Assembly: GCA_913058185.1 (NCBI GenBank)
Contig: CAJXQX010000005.1
Coordinates: 1 to 64,000, forward strand
From: an uncultured Verrucomicrobiota bacterium
Lineage (GTDB): Bacteria > Verrucomicrobiota > Verrucomicrobiia > Opitutales > Opitutaceae
DNA: 64,000 nucleotides
Direction of reading: 5' to 3'
Positions 36,647 to 42,024 of the stretch are shown here, in pieces. A program made the position numbers and the translations under genes. Positions within the stretch are counted from its first letter, which is position 1. Each line of letters opens with the position of its first letter. Under the pieces are notes generated by a model, which worked only from the letters and a program-made list of their open reading frames with translations, had not been told where the DNA came from and ran no database searches.

Positions 36647-37432
36647 CTAAGGCTTAAAGGCCGACCGCACCGTGGCGCCGATATATTCTTTGTTCAGCTT
36701 GGCGATAAAATCGTGGCTGATGAGCTTCGGACAGGCGGCGGAACATTCGTATTGGTTGGAGCAATTGCCAAATCCAAGTTCGTCCATTTTCGCGACCATG
36801 TTGAGCACGCGGGAATCACGCTCGGGCTGCCCTTGCGGCAGCAATGCGAATTGGGAAACCTTGGCACCCACGAACAACATCGCGGAGGAGTTCTTACAGG
36901 CCGCGACACAGGCACCGCAGCCGATGCAGGCTGCCGCATCCATGGCGAGGTCAGCGTGTTCCTTGGGAATCGGATTGGCGTTGGCGTCACAAGCCGAACC
37001 CGTGCGCACGCTAATGAATCCGCCCGCCTGTTGAATCGTATCAAACGAGGAGCGATCCGTAATAAGATCCTTTTGGATCGGAAACGGCTCGGCCCGGTAA
37101 GGTTCGACGACGATCACGTCACCATCTTTGAAACTACGAACGTAGGTCTGGCAGGAGGCGATCCCGTCATGCGGGCCATGCGGCTTGCCATCGATGACGA
37201 GTGAACACGTGCCACAGATGCCTTCACGACAATCGTGGGCGAATGCAATGGGCTCTTCGTTGCGGCGTTCGAGATCGTCGTTGATCACATCGAGCAACTC
37301 GAGGAACGACATGTTCGGGTTCAGATCCGTAGCCTTGTAATTAACAAAACTGCCCTCGGCTTGAGGACCCGCTTGGCGCCATACGCGCAAGGTCAGGGAA
37401 ATGTTTTTGGTGGAGGAGGTGTCAGCGACCAT
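36647..37432 (-). CDS. sdhB: Succinate dehydrogenase/fumarate reductase iron-sulfur subunit
   Basis: 261 residues. The [2Fe-2S] ligands are in HDCREGICGTCSLVIDGKPHG; CIGCGACVAACKNS and CSNQYECSAACPK provide the [4Fe-4S] and [3Fe-4S] ligands. The layout is that of the Bacteroidetes/Chlorobi and delta-type enzymes. It passes electrons from SdhA to the membrane subunit. The gene is last in sdhCAB but is separated from sdhA by a 417-bp inverted-repeat cassette. Confidence 0.96.
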   Translation of the reverse strand: MVADTSSTKNISLTLRVWRQAGPQAEGSFVNYKATDLNPNMSFLELLDVINDDLERRNEEPIAFAHDCREGICGTCSLVIDGKPHGPHDGIASCQTYVRSFKDGDVIVVEPYRAEPFPIQKDLITDRSSFDTIQQAGGFISVRTGSACDANANPIPKEHADLAMDAAACIGCGACVAACKNSSAMLFVGAKVSQFALLPQGQPERDSRVLNMVAKMDELGFGNCSNQYECSAACPKLISHDFIAKLNKEYIGATVRSAFKP

Positions 37433-37445
37433 GATTTTAAAGTGG

Positions 37446-37461
37446 GATTTACGAATTACGA
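37446..37461 (+). repeat. Left terminal inverted repeat of the cassette
   Basis: GATTTACGAATTACGA pairs perfectly with 37847-37862. It continues inward with TTTACGA, giving three heptamer units. The stop codon of the enclosed gene (37458-37456) lies inside it. Confidence 0.85.
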
Positions 37462-37814
37462 TTTACGATTGGCTCGCGAAGTTCGTATCGCGGCTACGAC
37501 GATTGAAAGGAGTTCGTTGGCTTCTTGGAAGAGAAGTCGGACCTTCGAATTGGGGACTAGTTTGGCCGCGACGATTAATTCCATCCAATAAATGGTTTCG
37601 TCGCATTCCTCTTCTACTATTTTGAGTTTGTTGATGAAATCTGCTTTGGATTTCGCTCGGCAAGCAGCCCGATAATTTGCTCCCACGGAAGTGCCACATC
37701 GAAGCAGTTGCCTCCCCAACACCGATCCGGTCGTGCCCGCTGGCAACGCTTCCACGAGACGAAGACCCGTAGAGCAAACTCCTGAGTTCGTCGTATCATC
37801 TCGTCCTTGGTCAT
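37456..37814 (-). pseudogene. Four-helix-bundle (S23/IVS, Avd-related) protein gene with 1-nt frameshift
   Basis: The N-terminus MTKDEMIRRTQEFALRV begins at ATG 37814. The body, LRLVEALPAGTTGSVLGRQL, SVGANYRAACRAKSKADFI and EEECDETIYWMEL, is in another frame. Adding one G (plus strand) beside 37764 joins them as ...ALRV-LRLVEALP..., a normal 119-residue protein of the family. Members form small helical bundles; they occur in 23S rRNA intervening sequences, as stand-alone genes, and as the Avd partner of diversity-generating retroelements. The function in this setting is unknown. The C-terminal residues ANRKS and the stop are encoded by the terminal repeat. Confidence 0.85.
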
Positions 37815-37846
37815 GCATTTGCCTCAAAGAAATCGTCATTCGTAAT

Positions 37847-37862
37847 TCGTAATTCGTAAATC
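37847..37862 (-). repeat. Right terminal inverted repeat of the cassette
   Basis: TCGTAATTCGTAAATC is the exact reverse complement of 37446-37461. Further CGTAATT and CGTCATT units extend inward to about 37833. Confidence 0.85.
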
Positions 37863-37870
37863 TCGCAGAG

Positions 37871-39793
37871 CTATTTATAGCTTCTTGTGCTCATTTTGAC
37901 GGTCTCGTAGTTGAGATCCTCGGTGAGTCGGTTCGGGACGGTGCCCTCACCTTGATATTCCCAGGCGGCGACGTGGGCGAAATTCTCATCGTCGCGGAGA
38001 CATTCGCCGTCCGGATGTTGATACTCTTCACGGAAGTGTCCGCCACAACTCTCCTCACGGGTGAGGGCGTCACGGCACATCAGTTCGCCAAGTTCAAGGA
38101 AGTCGGCGAGGCGGCCCGCCTTCTCCAGGGCTTGATTGAGTGATTTGTCAGAACCGGGGACATTGACGTTGGCCCAGAACTCTTCGCGTAAAGCGGGGAT
38201 GAGTTTGAGCGCTTCTTCCAGACCTTCCTTGGTCCGAGCCATGCCACAATGGTCCCACATGATCTTGCCGAGGCGTTTGTGGAAATGGGCGACGGTTTCT
38301 TTACCTCTGGTGTTGAGCAGACGCTGGGTCATTTCGTTCACCTTGTCGGTTGCTTCCTTGAAGGCCGGATCATCGGTTGAAGGCGTCGATCCCGGCTTTT
38401 GCGTCGCAAGGTAGTTTCCGACGGTGTAAGGCGCGACGAAATATCCGTCGGCGAGTCCCTGCATCAACGCGGAGGCACCGAGGCGATTGGCCCCATGATC
38501 GGAGAAATTGGCTTCACCGAGCACGAACAGTCCCGGGACATTGGACATGAGGTTATAGTCCACCCAGAGGCCACCCATCGTATAGTGAACGGCCGGGAAG
38601 ATGCGCATCGGCGTCTCGTAGGCGGACTCATTGGTGATCTCTTTGTAGATATCGAAGAGGTTGCCGTAGCGGGTACGAACCGTATCCGCGCCGAGGCGAT
38701 TGATCGCATCACTGAAATCGAGATAAACACCGAGCTTAGTCGGACCGACGCCGCGACCTTCATCGCACATGCGTTTGGCCGCCCGGGAGGCGACATCGCG
38801 CGGAGCCAGATTTCCGAAACTCGGATAGATCCGCTCGAGGTAATAATCCCGATCTTCCTCTGGAATGTCATTGGGATCCTTTTCGCAGTCTACGGCCTTC
38901 TTGGGCACCCAGATACGTCCGTCGTTGCGTAACGACTCCGACATGAGAGTGAGTTTTGACTGATAGTCGCCCGAAACCGGAATGCAGGTCGGATGGATCT
39001 GGGTGTAACACGGGTTGGCGAAACAAGCGCCCTTCTTGTAAGCCCGCCATGCGGCGGTCGCATTGGAATTACGCGCGTAGGTAGAGAGGTTAAACACGTT
39101 GCCGTATCCGCCGGTCGCCATGACCACACAATCAGCGGCGTGCTTCGTGACTTCGCCGGTGATGAGGTCCCGCACGATAATGCCCTTGGCTTGGCCATCA
39201 ACGAGGACCAGCTCGAGCATCTCGGAATTGGCGTGAAGCTTCACCCCACCCGATCCGATCATTTTCGACAGGGCGGAGTAAGCGCCAAGGAGGAGCTGTT
39301 GGCCGGTTTGACCGCGGGCGTAAAAGGTGCGCGAGACCTGAGCGCCACCAAAAGAACGATTCGCGAGTAGTCCGCCGTATTCACGGGCGAACGGCACGCC
39401 TTGGGCGACGCACTGGTCAATGATATTGGCAGATACCTCGGCCAAGCGATGGACGTTGGATTCGCGGGAGCGGTAGTCGCCTCCTTTAACCGTGTCATAA
39501 AACAAACGATAAACGCTGTCGCCGTCGTTCTGGTAATTTTTCGCGGCATTGATACCGCCCTGGGCAGCAATGGAGTGAGCGCGACGCGGGCTATCGTGAA
39601 AGACGAAACAGTCTACTCGGTATCCCAGTTCCGCCATAGTGGCTGCGGTGGAACCGCCCGCCAAACCAGCGCCAACAACGATTACCTTATATTTTCGCTT
39701 ATTGGCGGGATTGACCAACTTCATGTTGGCTTTGTAGGTGCTCCACTTCTCCGGGAGATCTCCCGGAGGAATATTCGAATTTAGAGTGGCCAT
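37871..39793 (-). CDS. sdhA: Succinate dehydrogenase/fumarate reductase flavoprotein subunit
   Basis: 640 residues. The FAD-binding [20 protein letters not shown] and the [15 protein letters not shown] block, with the histidine that binds FAD covalently, are intact. HPTCIP and the catalytic-arginine region [14 protein letters not shown] are present, then [26 protein letters not shown]. It oxidises succinate to fumarate. The gene starts 12 bp after sdhC and ends 8 bp before the inserted cassette. Confidence 0.97.
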
Positions 39794-39805: not shown

Positions 39806-40588
39806 TTAGCGTTGCGCAATGAGTTCGGCGGCAGCAGCAGTGCCAGCGGCAGGTTCAACCAGTCCGGTGAGGATGGCCCCAGGGATCGCCAAGTTTCCGA
39901 GGAAATACAGCAGGCAGAAGACCGCGACGACGCGGCGAAGACCGATCTCCCACTTACCATTACGCCACCCGAAGGTTTGAAAAAGCGACTCGGTCCCGTG
40001 CCACAGGTGAACACTGAGAAGTCCCACCGCGACGATGTAGAACAAGGAAACGAGAGGATTCGCAAAACCAAGGAACACCATCGAATAAACGTCGTGAACT
40101 TCGGTGCCGGCGGTCGCGAGGGGGATACCAAACTCACGCACATCGTGCTGCAAGATGACTGGATCCAAGGTTCCTTTGAAGGTTTCAGACCCCGTAAAGC
40201 CCAAGGTAAAGTGCGCCAAGTGATAAAGGATGAAGGCGAGGACCACGAACCCGCTCATGCGCATGTAGCGCGAAGCAATCGAAGCACGTAGCCATTTTTT
40301 GACGCCATAGGAAACAGAGCCTTGAGCCGTGCGGCTTTCGATCGTGAGGACGACGGCGGCCCAAATATGAATCGCCACACAAGCCAGTAGAAATAGCCGG
40401 ATCCCCCACAAAGCGGGACCGAGTCCCTGCACAAAGTGAGCGTAGCCGTTAATCTGATCCGGGTGCGCGAAAATCTGTAGATTGCCAACGAGATGACCGG
40501 TAACAAAACCGACTAGGACCAATCCAGTGATCGCCATCAGAAATTTTCGGCCGATGGAGGAGGTAAACAGGTTGCGAAACAGGTTCAT
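39806..40588 (-). CDS. sdhC: Succinate dehydrogenase cytochrome b558 subunit
   Basis: 260 residues from ATG 40588; longer upstream frames lack hydrophobic or family features. Five membrane helices and histidines placed as in the b558 type that binds two haems (VTGHLVGNLQIFAH, AIHIWAAVVL, YHLAHFTLGF, LLSVHLWHGTESLFQTFGW) indicate a single-subunit anchor, so no sdhD is expected. It passes electrons to quinone (menaquinone is common in this type). It is the first gene of sdhCAB. Confidence 0.93.
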   Translation of the reverse strand: MNLFRNLFTSSIGRKFLMAITGLVLVGFVTGHLVGNLQIFAHPDQINGYAHFVQGLGPALWGIRLFLLACVAIHIWAAVVLTIESRTAQGSVSYGVKKWLRASIASRYMRMSGFVVLAFILYHLAHFTLGFTGSETFKGTLDPVILQHDVREFGIPLATAGTEVHDVYSMVFLGFANPLVSLFYIVAVGLLSVHLWHGTESLFQTFGWRNGKWEIGLRRVVAVFCLLYFLGNLAIPGAILTGLVEPAAGTAAAAELIAQR

Positions 40589-40770
40589 CGCAAAAGGTGT
40601 AAAAAGTAGAGAAAGTCTAGCCCAACGAGGCCGACAAGAGAGCGAGCAATCTGGAAGCCCCCCCTCCCGATGTAAACGAATCAACCCCGAGAAAGACTGC
40701 CTATAAGGCTTGCTGTCATAGCAGAGTAGATACCACCGAGTGGGATAACCTACCCTCACCCCGCAACGGA

Positions 40771-42024
40771 TCACTCAACGAGTGGCTTGAGCAGAGCAAA
40801 TTTGCCACTGGCCGCCGGGGGAATATGTCGACGTCGGAAAGCAACCACGCGCGCTTGATCGCCCAAAACTGCCGCAATCGCATCGGTCATTCCGGCAGGA
40901 GCCGTATGCTCTGCGACATAATGAAAATCCCAGCGGTCGGGTTTGCTTTGAATCAGCGAGTAGTGCCAGCACGTGAAGTCTGTCGGCATGGCTTCATCCA
41001 CGTCAGTCGGCGAGACGAGGGATCCATCGGCGCGGAAGTGTAAACCGGACTCGCGACCGAGCACTCGGAAACCATGGGCGCGTTTCTGCACGATATCGCC
41101 GGTGTGGTAGCGCAATAGAGGCATGGCCTCGCGACCACGGGTCGTGACGATTATCTGGAATGTATCCTCTAATCCGCGATAAGGCACGAGTTCGATGAAA
41201 GCATTCGAATCGATCGATTGGGAATTGTCCGCGAAGGCATCACCGACAAACAAGTACCCCGCCTCCGTCGATCCATAGAGATCGACTTGCGGAGCATCGA
41301 TGACCTCAGCGAAACGGCGGCTATGCTGCAGACTCGCTTTGCCGTAAGTCAGGATCACCGCTTTGACGCTTGGCACTTCGACTTTTCGGCGAGCCAGAGC
41401 CCGGGCCAGCAAGGAAAGGTAAATCGGCTCGCCTTCGATGATGTCCGGCTTGACGGCCTGAACCTCAGTGACGATGCGATCCCATTCCGCTTCCTGGAAG
41501 ACGAACGGATCACTGGTGAGATTGAGATAAACAGTGCCATCCAAGTAACGATTAGGAAATTCGTGATCCTCGTAGGGGCACAGATTACTGGAGCAACCCA
41601 CTGGGGCCAAAATACACTTGCGATGGGCTTGCCCGACGAACGGCTTCAAAATGGGTGAGGCTTCGTAGGCGCGGGCGGTTTGAGCATCCCACCAACCATC
41701 TTCCATGATCACGGTCATGGGACCGGAAGTCGTGCCAGACGTGCTCTCATACTCGAAGCGTTCCTCGGCTAAACCGCGTTCAATTTTGGTGTAGTCCTCA
41801 AAAAACGATTCGTGACCATGCTCAACAATGTCGCTTTTGGTTAGGCGCGGGATCTCAGCGTAACAGCTCCATTGCAGCGGTTCATTGTGTAACGGAAACC
41901 GTTTACCATACAAAGGACTGCGCTCGTAAATACGTCGTATCTCCTGCTCCAGCGGAGCGGGAATGATATCGGCTAAGGCTGATCCCTGGGTAGCGGGATC
42001 GTGGGCAAATTGCGGCGCGGACAT
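40771..42024 (-). CDS. Phenylacetate-CoA-ligase-like AMP-binding protein
   Basis: 417 residues from ATG 42024. The adenylate-forming P-loop is YESTSGTTSGPMTV. Motif A5 is visible as DLYGSTEAGYLFVG and motif A7 as LLRYHTGDIVQ, the arrangement of PaaK/CapK-type enzymes of the ANL superfamily. The N-terminal IYERSPLYGKRF is also typical. It should activate an aryl or acyl acid as the AMP ester, then the CoA thioester. No phenylacetate pathway genes adjoin, so the substrate is unknown. It lies upstream of sdhC with a 182-bp gap. Confidence 0.8.
   Translation of the reverse strand: MSAPQFAHDPATQGSALADIIPAPLEQEIRRIYERSPLYGKRFPLHNEPLQWSCYAEIPRLTKSDIVEHGHESFFEDYTKIERGLAEERFEYESTSGTTSGPMTVIMEDGWWDAQTARAYEASPILKPFVGQAHRKCILAPVGCSSNLCPYEDHEFPNRYLDGTVYLNLTSDPFVFQEAEWDRIVTEVQAVKPDIIEGEPIYLSLLARALARRKVEVPSVKAVILTYGKASLQHSRRFAEVIDAPQVDLYGSTEAGYLFVGDAFADNSQSIDSNAFIELVPYRGLEDTFQIIVTTRGREAMPLLRYHTGDIVQKRAHGFRVLGRESGLHFRADGSLVSPTDVDEAMPTDFTCWHYSLIQSKPDRWDFHYVAEHTAPAGMTDAIAAVLGDQARVVAFRRRHIPPAASGKFALLKPLVE

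Follow-up and report, generated by a model that had tools for sequence, protein, structure and literature searches.

Heptamer-flanked S23 four-helix-bundle cassettes as candidate mobile elements at operon junctions

Our results support a model in which small cassettes, each consisting of a heptamer array, an S23-type four-helix-bundle (4HB) gene and an inverted heptamer array, would form a mobile and widespread class of elements resembling the intervening sequences (IVSs) of 23S rRNA. In this model, which we consider probable, the 4HB protein recognises the heptamers of its own lineage and an enzyme from outside the cassette does the cutting. One such cassette separates sdhA from sdhB in the window analysed here, a stretch of 64,000 nucleotides from an uncultured Opitutaceae bacterium (Table 1). 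The window genome (G000) is a draft of 4.09 Mb in 159 contigs and is 99% complete.

Table 1. Features of the window cassette and of the sdh operon around it.
Feature	Position	Strand	Remarks
Whole cassette	37446..37862	-	417 bp; RNA predicted as one structure closed by heptamer stem
5' heptamer array (operon sense), GATTTACGAATTACGAATTACGAATGACGA	37833..37862	-	8 bp past sdhA stop codon
3' heptamer array, inverted relative to 5' array	37446..37468	+	+ strand reading = GATTTACGAATTACGATTTACGA
S23/PF05635 4HB gene, clade B	37456..37814	-	ATG 37814; frameshifted
sdhA, upstream host gene	37871..39793	-	Profile match
sdhB, downstream host gene	36647..37432	-	Profile match
sdh cytochrome subunit	39806..40774	-	First operon gene visible; Pfam match weak (25.9 bits; cut-off, 25.8)

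The first-pass annotation of the window had described a 417-bp unit with perfect 16-bp heptamer repeats in a 438-bp gap between sdhA and sdhB, and its coordinates were all borne out. The perfect repeat (37446–37461, GATTTACGAATTACGA, and 37847–37862) is built of tandem WTTACGA heptamers and is part of longer arrays. The 438 bp from the sdhA stop codon to the sdhB ATG hold these arrays and one gene, which has the same sense as the sdh operon and whose last codons overlap the 3' array. The identification of this sole gene as S23-type stood, with a match to PF05635 (S23, 23S_rRNA_IVP; E = 1.4e-14; 54.6 bits against a cut-off of 33.8), but a frameshift had been overlooked: one nucleotide is lost near 37752–37766, and the normal N-terminus (MTKDEMIRRTQEFALRV) and the remainder lie in different frames. 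The 4HB copies at the sdhA–sdhB junction of relatives are in frame. Because of its frameshift, the window copy is probably in decay; the frameshift could also be an assembly error. Open reading frames and a profile search revealed no transposase inside the 417 bp, and an Rfam scan at the cassette returned no family at gathering score. The host is thus a junction between protein-coding genes and not an rRNA gene. In the whole genome, ATTACGAATTACGA with at most one mismatch gave 29 matches, compared with none for the reversed control.

The association of heptamers with 4HB genes extends well beyond this junction, and the finding of heptamer repeats around 4HB genes elsewhere goes against one of the refutations that the first-pass annotation had set for itself, namely repeats at this site alone. 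G000 has six PF05635 genes, five of which are flanked by clear inverted short-unit repeats with a different unit each time, whereas those of the sixth (L002) are weak or absent. We also examined 138 PF05635 loci from the window's family and many other phyla, picked by protein alone and in many cases taken from MAGs. Their flanks have a 7-nt period, with mean lag-7 matches of 14.9 and 15.4 of 21 against ~9.2 of 21 at control positions, and other lags at baseline. An inverted-arm score of at least 15 was reached by 76% of own pairs and by 7% of mismatched pairs, although about a quarter of the loci have no clear inverted arms and some units are 6 nt long. Together, the genome counts and the comparisons across phyla rule out chance, or a peculiarity of this one locus, as the source of the heptamer–4HB pattern.

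At the level of sequence, the heptamers are specific to 4HB clades and keep a fixed orientation. Across 111 elements, heptamer similarity correlated with protein identity (Mantel r 0.61; maximum of 999 permutations, 0.17), with kinship among loci partly controlled in these statistics, and the correspondence held only on the same strand relative to the gene. The motif GAnTKnn occurred in 67 of 75 elements of the window's clade but in only 2 of 36 elements of other clades; as controls, its reverse complement was found in 4 of 75, and a column-permuted control gave 12%. Heptamer likeness was 0.59 within one clade across phyla, compared with 0.44 between different clades within one bacterial family. 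Other 4HB clades have words of their own (GAGTAGY, GCnnTCA, GAGTTGA, AGGAGTC and more), and within one genome the end words differ between clades. This pattern bears on whether the cassettes are non-autonomous MITEs that depend on an ordinary transposase and carry the 4HB gene along as a passenger. MITEs are small, with inverted ends, a short target duplication and no transposase, and the cassettes resemble them in each respect; gene-less short forms, inverted ends without a catalytic gene between them and the 5-bp duplication described below are all compatible with such an origin. However, unlike MITEs, the cassettes hold a conserved gene, and the sequence of the ends can be predicted from its clade. 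Because the ends track the 4HB clade across phyla, and differ between clades in one genome, a passenger role is disfavoured, and we regard a MITE origin as very improbable.

The sdhA–sdhB junction is variably occupied among relatives. Of the 30 family sdhB loci, six (G000, G005, G007, G002, G008 and G023) carry a 4HB cassette whose arrays are of the WTTACGA type; a 4HB cassette is also present at this junction in G061 and G076, and a 4HB gene adjoins sdhB in G018. Among the 30 family loci read, 18 relatives have an empty site, with a gap of 4–60 bp. The window cassette had been proposed to be a precise insertion into the operon, for which empty sites in relatives were the natural comparison, and these 18 sites, together with those at other junctions, uphold the proposal. 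In G028, the gap is occupied by a heptamer hairpin that has no gene and belongs to a different type (AGTAGCG), and the gaps in G024 and G030 contain array-like remnants. As a separate observation, the gap in G011 (L047) and G033 (L061) holds an ORF6N-domain gene instead, with repeated CAAATTGTGACATCC-like words.

Comparison of sequences at further junctions revealed filled, empty and decayed sites, one clade at three junctions, and one clean 5-bp target duplication. Filled and empty sites were also found at pheS–pheT, at a two-component junction and at three plasmid junctions. Within the window's genus, the two-component junction has a 4HB gene in G005, G003 and G004; in G007 there is an internal deletion but both arrays are retained, G001 has one array only, and in G002 a small remnant is left. 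The GAGTAGY clade occurs at pheS–pheT, gyrB–gyrA and gatA–gatB, and its members are interleaved on the protein tree, where several nodes have low support. Related conjugative plasmids with ~97.5% identical flanks are filled in Trichormus and Scytonema and empty in Aulosira, Nostoc linckia and Tolypothrix. At the clean plasmid junction, the empty site reads AAAAAGTAATTAAC and the filled site AAAAA-GTAAT-[cassette]-GTAAT-TAAC, a 5-bp duplication of GTAAT. A second junction, in Nostoc, has TTCTA on both sides but is ambiguous, being partly confounded with the element end, and a third, with ATG or an imperfect 5 bp duplicated, is likewise ambiguous. In this third case the element belongs to another 4HB lineage and lies one gene beyond, on a plasmid that is unoccupied at the first junction. 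The target duplication is therefore that of one clean plasmid case, and it is not resolvable at the window's sdhA–sdhB site.

Because the empty sites of close relatives lack heptamers, the arrays and the gene must have arrived together, and an order of arrays first and gene later is ruled out by the empty-site junctions. The same evidence tells against the arrays being ordinary microsatellites that grew by slippage and received 4HB genes by chance, as does the fact that the arms are inverted and clade-specific. Unit counts do vary between ~97% identical Planktothrix plasmids, and gene-less arrays are common, both of which slippage could explain; nonetheless, we find a microsatellite origin scarcely credible. 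In contrast, the empty sites, the 5-bp duplication and the presence of one clade in three operons strongly support the initial idea of a mobile element that lacks a transposase.

The flanking sequences place the cassettes inside operons and in sense orientation. According to heuristic gene calls, both neighbouring genes read in the direction of the 4HB gene in 146 of 166 elements and in the opposite direction in 10. Orientation was assigned by a codon-position GC rule, which called all 13 scored known junctions correctly and was picked after antisense frames in high-GC genomes had caused errors in rules based on the longest frame or on amino-acid composition. The median distance from the stop codon of the upstream gene to the start of the array is 4 bp (n = 96; interquartile range, -1 to 11). 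Host junctions include sdhA–sdhB, pheS–pheT, gyrB–gyrA, gatA–gatB, cysD–cysN and miaB–gmk, as well as cmr2–cmr3, drmD–pglX and csx2–cas1, with part of the neighbour names reflecting our own reading of protein sequences and not database matches.

The protein itself appears to be conserved and functional. Intact relatives of the window 4HB protein match TIGR02436 (86 bits), and the AlphaFold model of the 4HB protein (pLDDT 95.8) has the S23 structure 2rld as its best PDB match. The fold is that of S23 (2RLD/2GSC), a protein that is a pentamer in a published structure cited in PMC4990558. The four-helix bundle also resembles that of Avd, an accessory protein of diversity-generating retroelements (DGRs; Foldseek to 4dwl and 8ub7, TM ~0.73–0.76), a likeness of fold only and not of DGR membership: unlike at a DGR, no reverse transcriptase or variable gene is seen at the cassette. 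In the 4HB protein we identified no signature of a nuclease or of a transposase; PF05635 is the only Pfam match of the 4HB gene, and a Y1 HUH transposase is absent. In 13 of 14 measurable 4HB pairs, dN/dS was 0.04–0.15, indicating purifying selection, and the proteins are therefore made and used; the remaining pair, Trichormus–Scytonema (dN/dS 0.86), is too close to judge.

Purifying selection, like the operon-sense placement, could also mean that the cassettes are not mobile but are host regulatory modules, in which the 4HB protein binds heptamers in the mRNA and tunes or balances the neighbouring operon genes. The occurrence of cassettes between subunits of one complex and of dispersed arrays with the same word would suit such a role, and earlier authors have proposed regulatory roles for heptamers. 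However, cassettes are patchily present in close relatives and decay internally, the same clade occurs in unrelated operons, a junction or its neighbour can be occupied by different 4HB lineages, and a target is duplicated, and we thus consider a regulatory module quite improbable.

The cassette RNA is predicted to close on the heptamer stem (z = -3.4), in line with the earlier expectation that the ends would form a long stem in RNA. The analogy with rRNA IVSs drawn in the first-pass annotation proved a good one. Like the 23S rRNA IVSs of Coxiella and Leptospira, the cassette has an S23/PF05635 ORF between inverted ends that can pair in RNA, a similar length (~0.43 kb in IVSs) and a sense orientation relative to the host transcript, and in Coxiella heptamers have been reported before the IVS ORF and the IVS is excised by RNase III (PMC4990558). 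This IVS-type anatomy is already known. The cassettes differ in residing in protein-coding operons and not rRNA, and in showing purifying selection, two-sided heptamer arrays that follow the clade, and target duplication.

The resemblance raises the possibility of an RNA-level element, whose arms pair in the polycistronic mRNA, which RNase III excises and which spreads via RNA insertion and reverse transcription. In addition to the shared protein family and length, the Coxiella precedent and the closed RNA fold, the orientation bias and the likeness to Avd, the accessory protein of a retroelement, are consistent with this possibility. However, the need for read-through expression also predicts sense orientation, and the 5-bp duplication points to a staggered DNA cut. 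Reverse transcriptase (PF00078) is absent from G000, despite its completeness, and from 40 of 61 family genomes, several of them rich in 4HB genes; reverse transcription in G000 is thus unlikely, and its lack of the enzyme rules against spread driven by reverse transcriptase. Stems were no better matched within own pairs than across pairs among 12 pheST-clade and 3 sdh-type elements, a comparison weakened by low unit variation, and preservation of the RNA stem by compensatory change is unsupported in these two ortholog groups. Overall, we judge an RNA-level element unlikely.

Under the preferred reading of a mobile cassette, the 4HB protein would recognise its own lineage's heptamer in the ends, whether as DNA, a folded strand or RNA, and would join the ends or target them. 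An enzyme encoded outside the cassette would make a staggered cut, and the cassette would land within an operon, just past a stop codon, in sense orientation and with ~5 bp duplicated, where read-through of the host operon would allow its expression. Later internal deletion would leave hairpins or single arrays, and these would explain some or more of the heptamer repeats dispersed through genomes. Direct heptamer binding, a 4HB role in mobility, an outside nuclease and a function for the RNA stem are what we infer from these patterns. More tentatively, the cassettes could be a new mobile class in which a non-enzymatic 4HB protein reads a lineage-specific heptamer code and directs insertion beside stop codons within operons, with live and dead copies as a main source of the heptamer repeats found across bacterial genomes.

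Gene-less arrays are abundant. GAWTTACGAWTTACGA has 83 copies in 12 of 61 family genomes, compared with none for the reversed control, and the majority of its copies in G000 are without a gene. These gene-less arrays include decayed cassette copies, and because of the decay series at the two-component junction, arrays can evidently outlast genes. Arrays away from the gene were found in 5 of 6 genomes with the closest 4HB gene and in 6 of 55 others; the association is weak for AGTAGCG arrays, where the gene is present in 6 of 11 array genomes against ~2.7 expected. Many arrays have no matching gene in their genome, as in G072, where gene-less hairpins have loops of ~30–110 nt. The GATTTAC hairpins of G072 (L231–L250) often have a common inner GGCGCKGCCGCGCC-type palindrome, whereas the closest 4HB gene in that genome has GATTTTC arrays; these hairpins may be a self-copying short derivative. 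Elsewhere, two ATTACGA arrays of G000 (L020 and L035) lie directly downstream of apparent tRNA genes. In REPIN/RAYT systems, dispersed short palindromic or inverted repeats match the ends of a single-copy gene family, and RAYT is a Y1 HUH transposase. The cassettes are similar in that dispersed inverted repeats share the sequence of the ends of a gene, but their protein is a four-helix bundle and their units are tandem heptamers.

Intergenic tandem heptamers, often in inverted pairs, have been described in Xanthomonas and Nostoc (PMC4692102), Beggiatoaceae (PMC4679880) and Geobacter (PMC2700814), and a survey of 7006 genomes reported that, among short tandem DNA repeats between genes, they are the most abundant in many prokaryotes, without any clear indication of what they do (PMC6344855). 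When rotated, the published GGGANTN and GGGGAYT become GANTnGG and GAYTGGG, which are compatible with the GAnTKnn core of the cassettes. In excerpts of these four papers, no link is made to S23 or 4HB genes or to cassette mobility, and we found no report in the open-licence literature that ties heptamers to S23 genes in operons. Relative to that literature, the correspondence of clade and heptamer, the placement within operons and the connection with heptamer repeats dispersed through genomes appear to be new. S23 crystal structures date from 2006–2007, but the proteins are not known to have a function, and the heptamer–S23 link suggests a testable hypothesis for both, namely a small protein reading a 7-nt word. 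If binding holds true, 4HB proteins would provide a compact module for nucleic-acid recognition that occurs naturally in many specificities. The cassettes are also a candidate mobile element that has no recognised transposase and inserts between operon genes, essential ones included, and they may explain the abundant intergenic heptamer repeats, for which they offer a testable origin.

Finally, several minor observations concern related arrangements. In the pheS–pheT gap of L280 (G076), a GxxExxY/PDDEXK_3 gene lies between inverted arrays of 9–10 nt units (AACRAAGRN-like), an arrangement that may represent a parallel cassette system, and the pheS–pheT gaps of L277, L276, L292 and L303 contain other gene-less inverted short-repeat families (ACACGGATG, GCGCAAAGACGCGAAG, CACAGAGGACACGGAG). 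A search for phage carriage of cassettes gave two weak phage matches only. 4HB cassettes recur in defence operons of cyanobacterial and Chloroflexota plasmids (L304–L307, L311, L337 and L338), with DISARM, DUF1156–Swt1, type III-B CRISPR cmr2–cmr3, csx2–cas1 and cas2–cas1 as hosts. In L304 and L309, which are the drmD–4HB–PglX loci of the ~97% identical Planktothrix plasmids, the number of units varies, and the arrays on either side of the 4HB gene each form a hairpin of their own.
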